From contig NC_014297.1 of the NCBI RefSeq assembly GCF_000196895.1, positions 682,001 through 746,000 of the forward strand: a stretch of DNA of 64,000 nt, in the 5' to 3' direction. The notes beneath the pieces are model-generated. The model was not told where the DNA came from, did not search any database, and worked only from the letters and a program-made list of their open reading frames with translations. Position 1 is the stretch's first letter. Each line of letters opens with the position of its first letter. Positions 1-8,195 of this stretch are shown here, in pieces. This DNA is from Halalkalicoccus jeotgali B3. Lineage in GTDB: Archaea > Halobacteriota > Halobacteria > Halobacteriales > Halalkalicoccaceae. Position numbers and translations under genes: made by a program.

Positions 1-1031
1 TCCGTGACCGCGCTCCGATAGGCGGCGTAGGCCGGTCGGTCCTCGCCGTCGATTCGCACGGTCGTCGTTCCGCGCGCGCCGTCGAACACCGCCCAGTCGG
101 TTTCCTTGTCGACATCGAACCAGTTGGCCATCCGGACGCCCGCGTCGGCGAAAAACTCGAACGCTCCGGCGATCCACTCGTCCTTCTGCTCGGAGTCGAA
201 CCCATCCTCGATCGCCGAGGAGCTCCCGAATTCGGGGATCGAAAGCGGCGTGTCGTCGCCGGCGAGCGCCCGCAACCGATCGATCATCGGGTCGAACACC
301 TCTCGGACCGATCGCCACGCCGACCACTCCCGGCTCGCTCCCCAGTTGTACCCGTCGATGCCGAGCCAGTCGACGTACGCGTCGCCGGGGTAATACTCCT
401 CGACGGCATGGCCGCCGACATCCTCCGAGTTGGGCGACCAGATCCACCGGACGTGCGTCGGTTCCAGGGCGGTTTCATCCAGCCGATCGTGGAGCGTTCG
501 CCACATCCGCACGTAATCCTCCGGGGTCGCATCGGGGTGGACGGTTGCCCACGGGTACCAGTCCCCGTTCATCTCGTGGGCGGGCCGGAAGTAAAACCGC
601 CGCTCCTCGTTGCCGGCAAACACCCACGATTCGAGCAGGCTCATCCACTCCTCAAGCAGGTCGTCGTAGTGCCCCTCCTGAAACCGCCGTTCGAGCGGCA
701 CGATCGCCTCGCTCTCGTCAGATACGAACGGCTCCCACGTGAGAAGCGGGACGTGCCCGCGCTCCCAGACGGCCGTCATCGCCCGCTCGACCCGCTCTCG
801 CGTTCGCTCGTCGTCGAGGTCCGTGCCGGTAAACAGCGTCACGACCGACGGCCGACCCGTGAGCCACTCCTCGTGGCGGTCGAGCGTCCGGATCTGCTCT
901 CGGAGTTCTCCCCCGCCGGGGAAGACCCCAACGAGCATCGTATGCTCCCCTCCGAGCCCCTGACAGCCCACGAGGCCACCGCTCGTGATCAGTCCCATCG
1001 TCCGAAGTGCGCGCCGCCGGGAGGTCAACAT
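1..1031 (-). CDS. GH26-type beta-mannanase-like Tat lipoprotein (3' end outside window)
   Basis: Probable secreted glycoside hydrolase acting on mannan-like or related beta-glycans. The N-terminus has a twin-arginine stretch (SRRRALRT, residues 4-11), a short hydrophobic segment and a lipobox ending at Cys23 (GGLVGC), so a lipid-anchored Tat substrate on the outer membrane face is likely. The GH26 acid/base motif HEMNG is at about residues 152-156 (Glu153) followed by DWYPW, and the likely nucleophile is Glu267 in IPEFGSS. About 343 codons are visible and the frame runs off the window, so the C-terminus is unseen. It is divergent from the broken glycosyltransferase at 1156. In a glycan locus it could trim or release the polymer made by its neighbours. 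The family call rests on motifs; the true substrate is unknown. Confidence 0.82.
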   Translation of the reverse strand, partial: MLTSRRRALRTMGLITSGGLVGCQGLGGEHTMLVGVFPGGGELREQIRTLDRHEEWLTGRPSVVTLFTGTDLDDERTRERVERAMTAVWERGHVPLLTWEPFVSDESEAIVPLERRFQEGHYDDLLEEWMSLLESWVFAGNEERRFYFRPAHEMNGDWYPWATVHPDATPEDYVRMWRTLHDRLDETALEPTHVRWIWSPNSEDVGGHAVEEYYPGDAYVDWLGIDGYNWGASREWSAWRSVREVFDPMIDRLRALAGDDTPLSIPEFGSSSAIEDGFDSEQKDEWIAGAFEFFADAGVRMANWFDVDKETDWAVFDGARGTTTVRIDGEDRPAYAAYRSAVT

Positions 1032-1043
1032 CGGTGGCTGTCG

Positions 1044-1059
1044 TCCCCTCTAGAGGGGA
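1044..1059. promoter_or_regulatory. Perfect 16-bp palindrome upstream of the mannanase gene
   Basis: TCCCCTCTAGAGGGGA is identical to its reverse complement. It lies 12 bases upstream of the mannanase start codon, in the shared intergenic region with the divergent glycosyltransferase. It could be an operator or an RNA hairpin in the 5' leader; nothing in the sequence decides between them. Confidence 0.5.
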
Positions 1060-1124
1060 TCTCCATGCAAAAGGATGCCTGCTGACCCCTGAGGAACGAC
1101 GAACACCTACCTGAATGTTAGAAT

Positions 1125-1138
1125 AAATTTATATACAA
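1125..1138 (+). promoter_or_regulatory. TATA-box region for the glycosyltransferase at 1156
   Basis: The AT-rich stretch AAATTTATATAC sits about 22-28 bases upstream of the ATG at 1156, the spacing expected for an archaeal TATA box driving a leaderless transcript. Confidence 0.5.
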
Positions 1139-1155
1139 AATAAAACCAACAATAA

Positions 1156-2406
1156 ATGGCAATGATCGATTTCTTCCTCGACTCTCCGGTCGTCGCTCTG
1201 CTCGTCATCTCCCTGTGGATCGCGCTGGCCTTGTACGGGCTTTCAGCGGTCTGGTGGCTCGTCGAGACGGTCATCCTCGCGCGCGGGTATGCTGTCGATC
1301 CCGACGAGGCCGAGTGGGGGTTCGACGAGATTCAGGTCCGGATTCTCACCGTTGACGCCGAATCCGTGGTCCAGGCGACCGTCAACGCCGTTCCCGAAGC
1401 GATCGACGACGTCCACGTGATCGCCGAAGCGCCGATCTCGATCGACGGGGCCGCCGTCCACGTCGTTCCCGACGACTTCGAGTGTGAGGCCACCAACAAA
1501 GGACGGGCCGTCGAGTGGGCGCGTCAGACGGTGCCCTGCAGCAAGGAGTACGTGCTATATCTGGACGAGGACACCGTCATGGCCGGCTTCTCGGGGCTTC
1601 CGGATGCGGACGTGATTCAGTTCACCGAGAAACCGATCTACACCGGCTCGCGGGTGGCGTATCTGTGTGAGGTGTTCCGCGTCGGCTACCAGTATGAGCA
1701 GTTCGGGTTCCATCGTCTACGATACCCGCTGTACGCCTGGGGTGGCGGCGTCGCGGTCCGTACGTCCCTCGAAGAACGGGTGACCTGGGACGTCTCGACG
1801 ATCACGGAGGACACGAACTTCATCTGACGTGCGGCCGACGCCGGGTCGATCTCCTTTGCCATGCTCGACTCGCGATTCAGGAACCAGGCGCCGCCGTCGA
1901 TTCGGGCGATGATCCGTCAGCGTCGGCGCTGGATCTCCGGGACGCTCGCCGACGGGGGGCTGTTGCCGCTCCACTATCGTCCGCTGTATCTCACCCGTAT
2001 CGTCGCGTGGGCGTTCTCGCCGCTGGTCCCGATCCTCGTCCTTGCGGCGGCGCTGTTTCCGACGACGGCCCCGACCATGGAGTGGTACCGGCCGATCTCG
2101 CTCATGCTGTTCGGAATGTTGTTCGTCTACATGGCCGTTGGCCTGCTCGGCTATCGCAAGCATCCGCTTTTGTGGCCTCTCTTTATCGTCGCGACGCCGA
2201 TCGCGTTCGTGACCCACTCGATCGGGGCGCTGTGGGGGATCGTTCGGCCGGTGGAAACGTTCGAGGTGACCGAAAAGGTCACCCCCGACGTGATCGAAGA
2301 GCGCCACAACGAGCTCGCTGCGGGCGATCTCACCGACCACGACGGGACCGAACGTCTCGTCCGCGAAAACGAGGGCGCGTTCGTCACGAACGTTTTTGAC
2401 GACTGA
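1156..2406 (+). pseudogene. Family 2 membrane glycosyltransferase interrupted by one in-frame TGA
   Basis: A GT2 transferase of about 416 codons split by a single TGA at 1825-1827. Both halves lie in the same frame. The first half (223 aa) has an N-terminal membrane segment, a LDEDT acidic motif (residues ~136-140), a GGGV segment and TEDTNFI directly before the stop. The second half continues as RAADAG, carries the RQRRRW motif typical of processive GT2 enzymes, then several membrane segments and a soluble tail. Related enzymes commonly have EDTNF followed by an aromatic residue and RAA, so TGG (Trp) to TGA is the simplest history. No frameshift is needed. Alternatives are a sequencing error or two separately translated halves (an ATG exists at 1861). 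It sits next to other glycan genes and probably acted in polymer synthesis at the membrane. Confidence 0.8.
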
Positions 2407-2879
2407 CCGCCGCGTAGTTCAGCCCCGTCAGTTGACGACCGCTGTCGGCACGTTCGGTGCCCTGTTCGATCCGCGTCGTGTTCGTCCACGAGAGGCCCTG
2501 CTTACGCAGGACATCGGGTAGATACTTGCGGTCAATGGGTCGCGGAACTGTTTGTATCCGGACACGAGCAGCGGGCGTAGAGCAACAGACGCCAGTCTTC
2601 GCCCTCGATCTGCACCCCTAGCGCGGCGACCGTTGTTCCGACGTACCCGCTGCTGACGACTGCGAGATCCATTGTATGAGTCGTCATCCCTCGTTGTGAC
2701 TGGGGTTGGAATCTCGATACCGTCGGTCGTCTGTTCGACCCTCCCGACGCGAACCATCGATCGATCGTGATCCGCAGTATCGGTTCCGAGGCGGACCCCG
2801 CTCGACAGTTTTCACCACCCGTTTGCCCGTACATATCAATTATCGGAATGCTTTTGTCCGCTGACGAGAGTGCTCGACC
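2407..2879. other. Gene-poor interval with degraded coding sequence
   Basis: No intact gene is visible. The minus strand holds the dehydrogenase remnant at 2532-2672. Further along the same strand, about 2400-2530, is an open segment with haloarchaeal codon usage reading KYLPDVLRKQG and ending in GLNYAAV; I cannot assign it to a family. The end next to 2880 presumably carries the promoter of the epimerase. This looks like a scar of deletion and decay. Confidence 0.5.
2532..2672 (-). pseudogene. N-terminal remnant of a UDP-glucose/nucleotide-sugar 6-dehydrogenase
   Basis: The 46-residue frame opens with MDLAVVSSGYVGTTVAA, matching the start and Rossmann GxGxxG-type turn of UDP-glucose dehydrogenases (usual form VVGSGYVGTTVAA; here the first Gly of the turn is Ser). 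After about residue 17 similarity stops and an unrelated tail of about 29 residues follows before the stop. An intact enzyme is about 400-430 residues, so this is a fragment left by a large internal deletion. Such enzymes make UDP-glucuronate for glycan synthesis, which fits the locus. The assignment rests on a short motif. Confidence 0.6.
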
Positions 2880-3770
2880 GTGAACATACTGATCACTGGT
2901 GGAGCCGGGTTCATCGGAAGCCACCTCGTTGACGCGCTCGTAGCCGACCACGAGGTTACCGTCCTCGACGACTTCTCCAGTGGTCGCCGGTCGAACGTTC
3001 ACGACTCCGCGACCGTCGTCGAAGGGGACGTCCGGGACGAGCAAACGATAGCGGAGGCCGCCGGTGACGTCGACGTGATCTTCCACGAGGCCGCGAGCGT
3101 CAGCGTCGAGCGCTCGGTCGCCGAACCAGAATACAGCCACGCCGTCAACGTCGATGCGACGCTCTCGCTGCTGGAGACCGCCCGGAAACGCGACGCACGG
3201 TGTGTCCTCGCGTCGAGCGCCGCGGTCTACGGCGAGCCCGCGTCGGTGCCGATCCCCGAATCCGAACCGCTGGCGCCCACGTCGCCCTACGGGATCGAAA
3301 AGACCAGCATCGACCAGTACGCCCGTGTCTACAACGAGCTCTACGACCTGCCGACGGTCGCCCTGCGATATTTCAACGTCTACGGACCCCGACAGACGGC
3401 CGGCGATTACAGCGGCGTCATCAGTACGTTTCTCGACCAAGCCCGGGCGAACGACCCGATCACGGTCCATGGCGACGGCACTCAGACGCGCGATTTCGTC
3501 CACGTCGAGGACGTCGTTCGGGTGAACCTGCTCGCGATGGAAACCGACCACGTCGGCGAGGCCTACAACGTAGGTACCGGCGATACCGTCACGATCGCGG
3601 AACTCGCTCGCGCCGTCAGGGAAGTCGTCGGGTCGGACTCGGAGATCGTTCACACCGAGGGCCGGGCCGGGGACATCAACCACAGCTGTGCGGAGATCAC
3701 GAAAGCCCGCGAGCGGCTGGGCTACGAGCCGACGGTCCCCCTAGCGGACGGACTCGGGACGCTGACGTGA
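2880..3770 (+). CDS. NAD-dependent sugar-nucleotide epimerase/dehydratase
   Basis: Extended short-chain dehydrogenase acting on a nucleotide sugar, most like UDP-glucose 4-epimerases. It starts with GTG at 2880. The NAD-binding GGAGFIG turn is at residues 7-13, the Asp that binds the adenosine ribose at ~30, the catalytic Ser region (ASSAAVYG) at 111-118, and the YxxxK pair at Tyr137/Lys141. At 296 aa it is slightly shorter than many family members (about 305-330), mainly at the C-terminus. It lies between the dehydrogenase remnant and the FemAB-like gene, 52 bases before the latter, so the two may be co-transcribed. The exact sugar cannot be told from sequence. Confidence 0.88.
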   Translation: MNILITGGAGFIGSHLVDALVADHEVTVLDDFSSGRRSNVHDSATVVEGDVRDEQTIAEAAGDVDVIFHEAASVSVERSVAEPEYSHAVNVDATLSLLETARKRDARCVLASSAAVYGEPASVPIPESEPLAPTSPYGIEKTSIDQYARVYNELYDLPTVALRYFNVYGPRQTAGDYSGVISTFLDQARANDPITVHGDGTQTRDFVHVEDVVRVNLLAMETDHVGEAYNVGTGDTVTIAELARAVREVVGSDSEIVHTEGRAGDINHSCAEITKARERLGYEPTVPLADGLGTLT

Positions 3771-3822
3771 GTCTATCGACGACGAACGTCTATCTGTACG
3801 ACGACATTCGACACCGATTACG

Positions 3823-4854
3823 ATGAAGATAACAAAATTGACAGACGCGGATCGATGGGAGGAGTTCGTGCGGGAAAACAACGGTCCTGTTTTCGACAGT
3901 TGGACGTGGGGGAAACTCTGTGAGGAGTGTGGCCACCGGACGTACTTCTGGGGCGTCGAGGAGGACGGGGAGTTGCTCGCGTGTCTCCCCCTCGTCTACA
4001 TGCGCAGTCGCCTGTTCGGCGATCAGCTCGTCTCGATGCCCTACAGCGCCTACGGCTCCGTCGTGAGCGCCCCCGATGCCCCCGAAGAGGCCGTTCACCT
4101 CCTGCTCGAACCGGTCCGGGACCTCGCCGACGAACTCGACGTCGACCTCGTCAGCCTCCGGGGACGCGATCTGGGCGACCCACCCGGGTTCGAACGTGCC
4201 GAGCGGTTCGTCACCTTCGACATCCCCCTGACCGGCGACCCCGAGGACGCCTGGGATGCACTCGACGGATCGACCCGCAACCACGTTCGCAAGGCCGAAA
4301 AGAACGGCGTCGAGTACCGGCGGGCGACCTCGAAGGCGGACCTCCGGCGGTACTACGACCTGTATCTGAAGAACATGCGAGCCTTCGGCAGCCCGCCCTA
4401 TTCGTTCTCGTTTTTCACCTACCTCTGGGAGGAACTCGGAGAGGGGATGGTGGTCGAACTCGCACTCAAGGACGACCACCTGATCAACGGCCAGATCCGG
4501 TTTCCCTACGGGGATCGCTGTTTCGACTGGGGCGGGGTCAGCGACTACGAGTACCGCGACCTCCAGGGCGGAAGCTTCCTGCTGTGGAACGCCATCGAGC
4601 GCGCCTGCGAGGCCGGGTACGGGACGTACACGCTCGGCCGAACGCGGGAGGGGACCGGCGTCTACAGCTTCAAAAAGAGCTGGGGCGGCCAGAAGGTCCG
4701 GTTTGCGGACTACCACTACTCTCCTAACGGATCGATCGACCTGCCGGATCCCGACGACGAGAAGTACGACCGCCTCAAAGACGTCTGGGAGCGCCTGCCG
4801 CTGAAGGTAACCGAGCTAGTCGGCCCGCCGATTCGGCGCGATATCAGCCTCTGA
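3823..4854 (+). CDS. FemAB-like GNAT-fold acyl/aminoacyl transferase
   Basis: The 343-residue protein resembles the FemAB/BioF2-like (Acetyltransf_6) group: an N-terminal half beginning FDSWTWGKL and ending with the first GNAT-like fold, then RNHVRKAEKNG at about 150-160, and a C-terminal GNAT half with WGGVSDYEYRDLQGG and FKKSWGG. In bacteria FemAB enzymes move amino acids from tRNA to peptidoglycan, and relatives occur in exopolysaccharide/exosortase loci. Archaea have no murein, so a role in amidating or acylating a surface glycan is an inference from its neighbours. Its 3' end overlaps the convergent GT4 gene by 39 bases. Confidence 0.78.
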   Translation: MKITKLTDADRWEEFVRENNGPVFDSWTWGKLCEECGHRTYFWGVEEDGELLACLPLVYMRSRLFGDQLVSMPYSAYGSVVSAPDAPEEAVHLLLEPVRDLADELDVDLVSLRGRDLGDPPGFERAERFVTFDIPLTGDPEDAWDALDGSTRNHVRKAEKNGVEYRRATSKADLRRYYDLYLKNMRAFGSPPYSFSFFTYLWEELGEGMVVELALKDDHLINGQIRFPYGDRCFDWGGVSDYEYRDLQGGSFLLWNAIERACEAGYGTYTLGRTREGTGVYSFKKSWGGQKVRFADYHYSPNGSIDLPDPDDEKYDRLKDVWERLPLKVTELVGPPIRRDISL

Positions 4855-6015
4855 TCGGGGTTCTTCGAGGATCGACTCGTAGAGGTCGAGATACCGCTCG
4901 GCGATCGAGTCCCACGAGAGGCGATCGCCCTGTAGGGCACTGTTCTCGCCCATCCGGGTGCGTTTCTCGGGGTCCTCGAGCAGGTCCACGATCGCGTCGG
5001 CGAGCGCGTTCGGGTCCTCCGGGGGGACGACCTCGCCACAGCCCGCCTCCCCGACGAGTTTCGAGAACTCGCCCGCCGTCGAGGCGACCACGGGCTTGCC
5101 GAAGGCAAAGGCCGTCGCGAGCGTTCCGCTGTGTCCCTTGGTACCACCGCTCTGGCGCCTGTAGGGGACGGCGACGAGGGCGGCCCGCGAGAAGAACGTT
5201 CCGACCTCGTCGTTGGGGATGAAGTGGTCGTGGATCTCGAAGGTATCGGGATGGCGGTCGATGATTTCGCGTGAGCGCCGTCCGAACCGTCCGTTCCCGG
5301 CGACCAGGAGCGTCGCGTCGGGAACCCGCTCGCGTACGAGCGCCATGGCCTTCACGAGCGTGTCGATCCCCTTTGCGGGGATGATGTGCCCGAAAAACAA
5401 CACCGTGTGGGGCTCTTCGGGGCGTTTCTCGTAGTCGTACTCGCCGAACATGTCGTTGACCCCGTGGGGGATGACCGACACCGACTCCGGATCCGAGACG
5501 CGCTCTCGCAGAACGGTTCGCTGGTTTTCGGTGTGGACGATCGAACGACGGACGTCGAGGTCGGGGATCAGCGCCTCAACGATCCCTTCGAGGGCGTCGG
5601 GCGGTCGCGAGAGCGGAACCCGTTCGACCGGGACTTCGTGGTGTGTCACGACGAACGGGTAGCGCTCGTCGAGGCGGTAGCGCTTCGCGAAGAACTTCAC
5701 CTGCGGGAACAGCCCCGTTGGATCGTGGACGATGTCGGGATCGACCGCCTCGATCAATCGGAGGTTCTTATAGGAGGCCAGCGCCTTCAGGTTGCGCCGA
5801 ACGTCGAAGTTGAACTTCCGCAGCTCCGGCAACGAGATGTTCATCGACTCGAACGTGTTCAGAACCCGCACGTCCTCGGAGAAGACGTCGTCGGCGGTCG
5901 TTTCTTCGGGTTTGAACACTGTCACGTCGGCGTGCTTGGCGACGGCGTTCGCGAGTTGCGCAGCATAGTGAGGGAGTCCGCCGCTGTTTTGAGAAAGCAC
6001 GTACGCTATTTCCAT
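4816..6015 (-). CDS. Family 4 glycosyltransferase (GT-B fold)
   Basis: A 399-residue retaining glycosyltransferase. The N-terminal Rossmann half begins MEIAYVLSQNSGGLPHYA, with the glycine-rich acceptor loop; the C-terminal half has VLFFGHIIPAKGIDTLV (residues ~205-221), the nucleotide-sugar-binding segment AFGKPVVAS and a downstream Glu (TAGEFSKL), as in GT4 enzymes. It is cytoplasmic or membrane-peripheral and presumably adds a sugar to a lipid-linked glycan. The TTATAT-like stretch upstream (about 6040-6050) may be its promoter. Donor and acceptor are unknown. Confidence 0.9.
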   Translation of the reverse strand: MEIAYVLSQNSGGLPHYAAQLANAVAKHADVTVFKPEETTADDVFSEDVRVLNTFESMNISLPELRKFNFDVRRNLKALASYKNLRLIEAVDPDIVHDPTGLFPQVKFFAKRYRLDERYPFVVTHHEVPVERVPLSRPPDALEGIVEALIPDLDVRRSIVHTENQRTVLRERVSDPESVSVIPHGVNDMFGEYDYEKRPEEPHTVLFFGHIIPAKGIDTLVKAMALVRERVPDATLLVAGNGRFGRRSREIIDRHPDTFEIHDHFIPNDEVGTFFSRAALVAVPYRRQSGGTKGHSGTLATAFAFGKPVVASTAGEFSKLVGEAGCGEVVPPEDPNALADAIVDLLEDPEKRTRMGENSALQGDRLSWDSIAERYLDLYESILEEPRSEADIAPNRRAD

Positions 6016-6134
6016 CGTCTCACACTACGCCGTGGCGACAGTTATATTGTACTAACGGATTCGACACGACGTCGAATTAATTGAGATCCGAGTAGTCGGG
6101 ATCCTACCGGGTTCGGGGACTCGGACGGGTCGAC

Positions 6135-6941
6135 TCACCGATCCGACCCGAGAACGACGTCGAACAGGAGGTAAAAGACGGCGCTCCCGAGCAGGCCGAC
6201 GACCGGGAGCGGGGAGACGCCGATCTGTAGCGAGCGACAGAAGTAGGCCATCGCGTCCCGATACTCCCCGTCGTCGTGGCGGTAGTACCCCATCGCGAAG
6301 TACATCTGTCGATAGAAGACGTACGTGAAGGGTCTGACCTCCGGAACGCGCTCGCTGGCGAGTGAGACGTACTTCTTGCCCTCGGTCAGGTAGTGGGTCG
6401 CGTCGATCCGGCCGGACGACATGCTGGTTTCGTGGTATCGGGCGGTGAACGTTTCGCGACAGAAACAGACGCCCTCGCTCGCAGCTTCGAGCGCGAACAG
6501 GTGGTCTTCCCACCGGCCGAGTTCCTCCTCGAAACGCACGTCGACCTGTGCGGTGTCGAGGACGATCGAGGACATCACCTCGTTGAGGTCGCCGACGAAC
6601 AGTTCGTAGAAGAAGTCGTCGCGCGACATCGAAGGATCGCCGTCGAGACAGAGCCCGGCACCGGTTCGGTCCATCCGGACGAGTTGGCGCTCAAGTTTGT
6701 CGGGTTTCCAGAGGTCGTCGGCGTCGAGAAAGGCGACGTATCGCGTCGAGGCACGCTCGATACCGCGATTCCGCGTTGCTGCCGGCCCGCTCCCGTCGGG
6801 GTCCTCGACGACGATGGTTTCGGTCCGAACGGACTGTCGATCGATCGACCGTTTCGCCTCCTCCAGCATCCGTTCAGGCGTATGGGCCGAACTGTAGGGG
6901 ACGACGACCGAGACCGTCGGATCCGACTCCGTCCTCGACAT
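6135..6941 (-). CDS. Family 2 glycosyltransferase
   Basis: I chose the ATG at 6941 because the next gene upstream ends at 6992 and the GT2 fold (SVVVPYSS) begins 11 residues after this start. The product is 268 aa. It has VVVPY, the nucleotide-binding region, FLDADDLW (residues 71-78, metal-binding DxD) and the later ED pair (GRWEDHLF). A hydrophobic C-terminus (about 20 residues, GLLGSAVFYLLFDVVLG) may anchor it to the membrane. It follows the DUF1616 gene by about 50 bases on the same strand and is probably in the same operon. The sugar transferred is unknown. Confidence 0.85.
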   Translation of the reverse strand: MSRTESDPTVSVVVPYSSAHTPERMLEEAKRSIDRQSVRTETIVVEDPDGSGPAATRNRGIERASTRYVAFLDADDLWKPDKLERQLVRMDRTGAGLCLDGDPSMSRDDFFYELFVGDLNEVMSSIVLDTAQVDVRFEEELGRWEDHLFALEAASEGVCFCRETFTARYHETSMSSGRIDATHYLTEGKKYVSLASERVPEVRPFTYVFYRQMYFAMGYYRHDDGEYRDAMAYFCRSLQIGVSPLPVVGLLGSAVFYLLFDVVLGSDR

Positions 6942-6991
6942 ACCTACACAGTCCATGTGGGTGACCTTTACTATTGTGACCCGTGCCCGGA

Positions 6992-7978
6992 CTACCCGCC
7001 GGATTCGGTCACGTTGACCCACACGTACGCGCTCCGGTACGCCTCGCTCCCGTCGATCGTTTCCGGGGGCGTCCCGGTGTAGAGCAGATAGGTCAAGCGC
7101 AGGTTCTCGCCGGCCCGGTCGGGCGTGACGACGTGTTCGTTCTCGACGGTCTCACCGCTTTCGAGCGTGACCTCGAACCGGTCGAGTTCGCTCGCTGACT
7201 GGACGCTCTGTTCGCCCTCCGTCCCGACTTCCTGTAGCTGGATGACGACGGTGTAGGTGGTCGTTACCCCCTCCTCGTTACCGATGCCGACCACCAGCGG
7301 TTCTTCTTGCCCGACGGTTAGCTCGTCGGGATACTCCTCGGAGACGGTCCCGTTGGCCCCTTCCTGAAGGAGGTACAGCTCGGTGTAGCCGTCGCCCTGG
7401 ACGGGCCCCATCGCGTACGCGACGCCAAGCGTGCTGAGGACGACTAAGACCGCCACCCCTACCGCCACCGCCGCAACCGGACTTCCGTCGGAACGCGACG
7501 GTCCGAGAGAGCCAACCGCGTCGATCCACGCCACGGCCGGGCGACCGAACCGCTCGGCCGGCGTAAGCGAGAGTCGTCGGATCGCCCCGATGCCGCCGAA
7601 GGCGACGCTCAGAACGACGAGGATCCCGAGCGTCGTCGAACTCCCCCCGATTCCGGCGGGGGCTCCTCTCGCGATCAGCACCAGGAGTCCGCAACTCGCG
7701 GCGATCGATAGCGCCGCCCGTTCGAGGTGGCCGATCCGAAACCGGCTCCCTTCTGTCTTCGGGCCGGTCGGAGAACGCGGGAACAGGGCCGTGAGGAGGG
7801 CGTAGCCCGGCACGAAGCCGACGAACAGCGCGCGGGCCACGGTTCGAACGGGCGTGTTCTCGAACGCCGGGAGCGCCATCAGGGAGACGATCAGCACGCA
7901 CGAACCGACGGCGATCAGATCGGCGGGCGCTCGCCGGAGCGAGGAGCGACCTGCGCGCCCCTCGACGGTATCTTGCAT
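6992..7978 (-). CDS. DUF1616-type membrane protein
   Basis: The 328-residue protein has two N-terminal membrane segments (about 20-65), two more around 85-135, a fifth near 175-195, and a C-terminal extracytoplasmic domain of about 130 residues with beta-rich character (ELTVGQEEPLVVGIGNEEG, TYTVVIQLQEV). This layout matches DUF1616 proteins, which recur in archaeal glycan and S-layer loci. Function is not established. It is divergent from the beta-helix gene and starts an operon with the GT2 gene downstream. The C-terminal domain resembles Ig-like extracellular modules, so a role in handling exported glycan or protein is possible. Confidence 0.72.
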   Translation of the reverse strand: MQDTVEGRAGRSSLRRAPADLIAVGSCVLIVSLMALPAFENTPVRTVARALFVGFVPGYALLTALFPRSPTGPKTEGSRFRIGHLERAALSIAASCGLLVLIARGAPAGIGGSSTTLGILVVLSVAFGGIGAIRRLSLTPAERFGRPAVAWIDAVGSLGPSRSDGSPVAAVAVGVAVLVVLSTLGVAYAMGPVQGDGYTELYLLQEGANGTVSEEYPDELTVGQEEPLVVGIGNEEGVTTTYTVVIQLQEVGTEGEQSVQSASELDRFEVTLESGETVENEHVVTPDRAGENLRLTYLLYTGTPPETIDGSEAYRSAYVWVNVTESGG

Positions 7979-8195
7979 CGTCCGTACCTACCGTCGCAAC
8001 TGATATAAGTATGACAGTTGCTACGGCGATCGGGTCTCTTAATCCATCACTACCGTCATACGCAGAGAGACGCCCCATCGGCCGATAGCCGTCGTTCTCG
8101 GGACCGATGTCGGTTTGATCGCGCGTATAGTCACTCGTCTAAAACGAGTTGCTATCAATCAATCAATATTTGTCAGAGGAGGACGAAATCATCCT
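7979..8195. promoter_or_regulatory. Divergent promoter region between DUF1616 and beta-helix genes
   Basis: These 217 bases separate two head-to-head genes. An ACTGATATAAGTATG stretch near 8000-8014 lies just upstream of the DUF1616 start, and an AT-rich stretch ending in a GAGGAGGA ribosome-binding motif (8176-8183) precedes the ATG at 8196. No gene is evident inside. Confidence 0.45.

Follow-up and report, generated by a model that had tools for sequence, protein, structure and literature searches.

A premature TGA at an invariant tryptophan codon of a GT2 membrane glycosyltransferase gene in Halalkalicoccus jeotgali B3: probably a recent null allele

The solved folds nearest to the protein considered here are those of the bacterial cellulose synthase BcsA and of the hyaluronan synthases. 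The TED and QxxRW motifs and a GT-A core with flanking membrane helices are common to this protein and to BcsA and the Class I hyaluronan synthases; unlike them, however, the Halalkalicoccus GT2 is only 416 aa in size, has low identity (10–16%) and high rmsd relative to them, and its gene carries a premature stop. A PcManGT-like GT2 mannosyltransferase (6yv7) is likewise archaeal and of similar size (Foldseek E-value = 2.1 × 10−8), but the identity is only 13%, and the substrate of the Halalkalicoccus GT2 is not inferable from this match. With respect to the lesion itself, the closest likeness is to recent nonsense pseudogenes, or null alleles, of prokaryotic accessory surface-glycan genes, in which a single stop, a patchily distributed gene and independent lesions in relatives are likewise found; the difference is that TGG to TGA was the sole type of nonsense change found in the GT2 family, a pattern that could be accidental or could point to a leaky UGA. 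In other organisms, phase variation is common among genes for surface polysaccharides. An in-frame stop within an otherwise intact gene is also a property of archaeal recoding (selenocysteine at UGA and pyrrolysine at UAG), and according to a review, stop readthrough in archaea has been reported only for Sec and Pyl (PMC8211752).

In the window, i.e., the whole analysed stretch of 64,000 nucleotides of H. jeotgali B3 (designated G000), an in-frame TGA at positions 1825–1827 was identified as codon 224 of a 416-codon GT2 ORF (1156–2406, plus strand), flanked by ...STITEDTNFI upstream and RAADAGSISFAML downstream. The ORF opens with ATG at 1156 and closes with TGA at 2404–2406, and the frame is unbroken beyond codon 224; both halves, 1156–1827 (223 aa) and 1828–2406 (192 codons; first ATG at 1861), lie in one frame. 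The features of the locus are as follows:

1–1049, minus strand: most of a GH26-family glycoside hydrolase gene, the divergent neighbour (L088:7931-9049; extends to the left of the window)
1128–1135, plus strand: TATA-box-like TTTATATA, 20–28 bases upstream of the GT2 start codon (from sequence; presumed promoter)
1156–2406, plus strand: GT2 membrane glycosyltransferase gene, 416 codons with read-through, broken at codon 224 (Pfam PF13632 across the stop)
1156–1824, plus strand: 5′ part with the N-terminal helix, GT-A core, and LDED and TED motifs; a 223 aa peptide if TGA terminates (alignment, AlphaFold2)
1825–1827, plus strand: TGA at codon 224, where Trp is otherwise invariant, five residues past the Asp of TED (sequence, ortholog alignment)
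1828–2403, plus strand: 3′ part with the QRRRW acceptor motif, interface and membrane helices, and conserved tail; untranslated if TGA terminates (alignment, AlphaFold2)
1861–1863, plus strand: ATG, proposed restart (sequence)
2623–2697, minus strand: 75-bp fragment like the beginning of the nearby UDP-sugar dehydrogenase gene
2880–3770, plus strand: NAD-dependent sugar epimerase/dehydratase gene, intact, the downstream neighbour

The promoter of the GT2 gene is presumably located at the TATA-like TTTATATA, and a similar sequence, TTTTTATATA, was found upstream of the GT2 ortholog of a sister species (G006); the GT2 mRNA likely has a leaderless start.

When the stop was read through, the Pfam domain PF13632 (Glyco_trans_2_3) spanned the site (E-value = 2.1 × 10−18, 67.3 bits vs. 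a cut-off of 27), whereas the matches to the separate halves were far weaker (E-value = 9.6 × 10−4 and 1 × 10−6); thus, the occurrence of the two halves in the same frame is not due to chance. The read-through protein aligned with full-length relatives over its whole length (query 1–416), and the claim of the initial annotation that a single TGA splits an otherwise complete GT2 gene was confirmed, with the stop in frame and both halves matching full-length relatives. Among the approximately 157 best-scoring PF13632 domains listed across 391 haloarchaeal genomes, the TGA at codon 224 was the only in-frame stop; in the control family PF01943 (flippase), another surface-polysaccharide family, there were 0 stops in approximately 157 listed domains. 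Trp occupied the codon-224 column in each of the 43 further distinct orthologs of the alignment, as well as in every more distant homolog covering this column, down to approximately 44% identity. The initial annotation had placed an aromatic residue, "often Trp", at this position, which was correct as regards Trp and understated its frequency. The homolog search that it had proposed as a check recovered intact homologs with Trp, and none of the aligned homologs examined ended, was split or restarted at codon 224. The motifs T217-E218-D219 (TED) and Q255-R-R-R-W259 were invariant in the ortholog alignment, and the remainder of the gene proved to be intact as had been claimed, with TED, QRRRW (within RQRRRW) and the membrane helices all encoded.

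The AlphaFold2 model of the read-through protein (mean pLDDT 81.7) had a GT-A core flanked by an N-terminal helix on one side and by C-terminal membrane helices on the other, and residue 224 was located in helix 218–229, which begins inside the TED motif. The top PDB matches in Foldseek were 9b8v, 4p00, 4hg6 and the Chlorella virus HAS, while a PDB sequence search with the GT2 alignment gave no match. Placement of the model near BcsA and the hyaluronan synthases is a fold-class assignment only because of the low identity (10–16%) and the rmsd of at least 6.5 Å. The PF13632 score above the cut-off and the presence of TED and QxxRW are those of a processive-type GT2 glycosyltransferase, the processive activity being putative.

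Lesions were also found in relatives. Among seven genomes of the same genus, the only other GT2 carrier was G006, in which the gene occupied the same neighbourhood and had 89–90% amino acid identity to that of B3. This ortholog (L004; G006:C25:57646-58887, minus strand) had TGG at codon 224 and its own single TGA at the conserved Trp54 (GAG TGA GGG), and was otherwise intact. The ortholog of genome G084, which belongs to another family (L014, G084:C52), contained a single TGA at the conserved Trp340, and a second GT2 copy of G084 (L090, G084:C41) was apparently intact across 301 residues on its short contig. Nonsense changes were present in three close orthologs (G000, G006 and G084), each at a different Trp, and a frameshift or truncation was present in three more. 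The close copy in G238 had a frameshift at residue 246 (the same break was found in L047), that in G128:C7 had one near residues 266–279, and the copy of Halorubrum amylolyticum (L054) broke off at residue 281, where unrelated sequence follows. More distant GT2 paralogs included one with TGA at the W34 column (L130, G375:C26) and a decayed one with TGA at a Trp column together with a frameshift (L137, G089:C3); TAG or TAA nonsense was not seen in the GT2 family. In a survey of the class, 48 full-length close GT2 matches (at least about 530 bits) were counted, of which three had an internal stop, TGA in all cases. Several other relatives were flagged as having one TGA, and those checked were natural ends of shorter proteins.

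An all-against-all search for single internal stops in 1.46 Mb of loci yielded, as well-supported mid-gene cases, the GT2 ones and two transposases, most of its other matches being N-terminal over-extensions or natural ends. In the ORF-by-ORF comparison of an approximately 123 kb contig of the sister species with the corresponding region of B3, GT2 was the sole clear-cut interrupted case, with antisense and out-of-frame ORFs swamping the output. When 534 kb of the B3 genome were scanned for further interrupted genes by coding potential, the scan proved to be without power for such genes, the GT2 site itself falling below a useful threshold. As a separate observation, the truncated GT2 of L054 runs, around position 5837, into a gene that by eye resembles a pyrE-type phosphoribosyltransferase. 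In G276, a gene close to the GT2 ortholog (L112, position 3848) has an internal TAG where a close relative has Trp, and thus Trp-to-TAG lesions do occur in haloarchaea.

The lesion in B3 appears to be young. For the G000/G006 pair of GT2 sequences (pairwise NG86), dN was 0.054 and dS was 0.45, while the dN values of the five neighbouring genes compared ranged from 0.094 to 0.162 and were above that of GT2. In the leave-one-out analysis, G000 and G006 each departed from 0 of the 146 columns nearly invariant in the remaining orthologs (TGA aside), against a neutral expectation at dS 0.45 of approximately 79 changes in those codons over the whole branch; on this count, no more than about 4% of the branch could have been free of constraint (rough Poisson bound). 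Of the amino acid changes between G000 and G006, 28/42 lay downstream of codon 224, the mean share in 79 intact pairs being 0.50 (sd 0.08), a skew that hints, weakly, at incipient relaxation of the 3′ part. The features expected of a recent nonsense allele were thus found, namely, a premature stop missing from homologs and a frame intact to the natural stop with none of the invariant columns changed. A recent one-base change from TGG to TGA is well supported by the invariant Trp in relatives, the unviolated invariant columns and the low dN.

The gene is probably a recent null allele, caused by a TGG-to-TGA nonsense change, of an accessory, BcsA/hyaluronan-synthase-like GT2 that haloarchaea lose repeatedly. 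Transcription would start from the TATA-like promoter, and the ribosome would stop after codon 223; the resulting product of 223 residues would keep most of the GT-A core and TED and should be inactive, since QRRRW and the C-terminal membrane helices would be missing. We infer that termination at codon 224 really occurs and abolishes activity, and loss of GT2 appears to be tolerated or favoured in haloarchaea. It should be noted that, for this strain, the claim rests on one base of one assembly. It should also be noted that both carriers in the genus (2/2) have a TGG-to-TGA change and no other decay, which argues against a null allele, as on that reading it is a coincidence.

The restriction to TGA bears on another explanation, in which tRNA-Trp(CCA) decodes the UGA at codon 224 inefficiently but sufficiently, so that a little full-length Trp224 enzyme is produced and the gene stays under selection. 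All five nonsense changes in the family (G000, G006, G084, G375:C26 and G089) were TGG to TGA at Trp columns, with no TAG, although TGG to TAG is equally easy, being likewise one G-to-A change; from codon usage, TGG to TGA would be expected to make up approximately 0.14–0.28 of single-base nonsense changes (kappa 2–8), and six single-stop copies among the listed matches of a transposase control comprised four TAG, two TAA and no TGA. That the coding sequences of the two Halalkalicoccus copies are strictly constrained is in line with such decoding. However, the TGA-only counts are small and the comparison is post hoc, Trp to TAG was seen in the neighbouring gene of another species (L112), and dead copies occur, as seen from the frameshift that accompanies the TGA of G089 and from those in other copies. 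Moreover, there was no stimulatory RNA fold downstream of the stop (z = +0.82) and no Rfam match in positions 1–8000, the tRNA-Trp candidate had the anticodon loop CTCCAGA, i.e., a normal CCA, no UCA anticodon was present among the called tRNAs, and TGA was the commonest natural stop among the long ORFs here (134/242). Sufficient decoding of this UGA is thus unlikely, and the more general proposition that haloarchaea read UGA as Trp often enough to make TGG-to-TGA changes in low-dose enzymes nearly neutral is considered improbable. If it held, such genes would not be pseudogenes despite an in-frame TGA at conserved Trp codons, and they would be systematically miscalled by annotation; in the same way, annotation of interrupted haloarchaeal genes would change if the TGA-only pattern reflected leaky UGA decoding. 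The locus differs from archaeal Sec and Pyl recoding in that the GT2 relatives carry Trp rather than Cys or Sec and neither an Rfam match nor a suppressor tRNA was found in the ranges given above. Selenocysteine, for which Cys or Sec in homologs and a SECIS element would be expected, is argued against by the Trp in all homologs and the Rfam result, and reassignment of UGA to Trp or a suppressor tRNA is argued against by the anticodons of the called tRNAs and by the use of TGA as a common stop. Searches of the literature on haloarchaeal readthrough, Halalkalicoccus pseudogenes and Haloferax nonsense suppression returned nothing on the GT2 gene.

The initial annotation had described the mutation as recent, phase-variable or a sequencing error; the recent one-base change was upheld, the phase-variable origin was not, and an error retains a small share of the probability. 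The recurrence of disruption across the family lay beyond what that annotation, made from the sequence alone, could show. If the genome really had TGG at 1825–1827 and an intact gene, a sequencing or assembly error would leave exactly the picture observed, in which the remainder of the gene is pristine and one base decides. Such an error is nevertheless rather unlikely, given that lesions of this class are found at other codons in G006 and G084, showing that GT2 does acquire real ones, that there is no homopolymer or repeat at codon 224, and that the assembly comprises 7 contigs with 98.58% completeness. An error is not needed as an explanation, judging from the TGA at another Trp in the syntenic sister gene and the nonsense and frameshift lesions in other orthologs. 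Far less probable is a functional split gene, with the N-terminal half and a separately initiated membrane half acting together. Although both halves are conserved and an in-frame ATG occurs 33 bases past the stop, at 1861, where a start had been suggested, no homolog is split at codon 224, the column of this ATG has no Met in any aligned relative (Val in 45%), the Met would fall within a predicted beta strand, 1861 is not preceded by a purine-rich ribosome-binding motif, and the break would sever the conserved helix directly after TED. Reinitiation at this ATG is accordingly considered unlikely. A phase-variable switch toggling a surface polysaccharide on and off would agree with the recurrence of lesions in GT2 relatives, but it is the least credible of these explanations: the site has no repeat tract, invertible segment or convincing inverted repeat, only chance-level repeats of 8–16 nt being present, and the lesion is a plain point substitution that falls at different codons in different species.

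The null allele, which thus remains the preferred reading, belongs to a gene of patchy distribution, with a match in 30/98 relatives and in 2/7 genomes of the genus. To the left of GT2, a UDP-glucose/GDP-mannose dehydrogenase gene lies beyond the GH26 gene, outside the window; to the right, the epimerase gene is followed by genes encoding a FemAB/GNAT-like protein and a GT4. This gene context suggests a role of GT2 in surface polysaccharide or exopolysaccharide synthesis. The dehydrogenase–GH26–GT2 block (L088:5523-10410; G000:C1:679523-684410) was common to G000 and G006 and absent at the syntenic position in G002 and G004; next to the GT2 orthologs searched in Halorubrum and elsewhere, neither the GH26 nor the dehydrogenase gene was found. 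The finding is of an ordinary kind, its uncommon feature being the parallel TGG-to-TGA lesions in sister species. As a recent null allele, it would represent a clean small case of parallel gene loss, affecting two sister species and at least four other haloarchaeal copies with the neighbouring genes intact, and would point to a surface polymer the loss of which is frequently tolerated or favoured, e.g., under virus or culture selection. The 75-bp dehydrogenase-like fragment at 2623–2697 lies within an approximately 300-bp stretch missing from the G006 locus and is perhaps a recombination scar bounding the GH26–GT2 pair.
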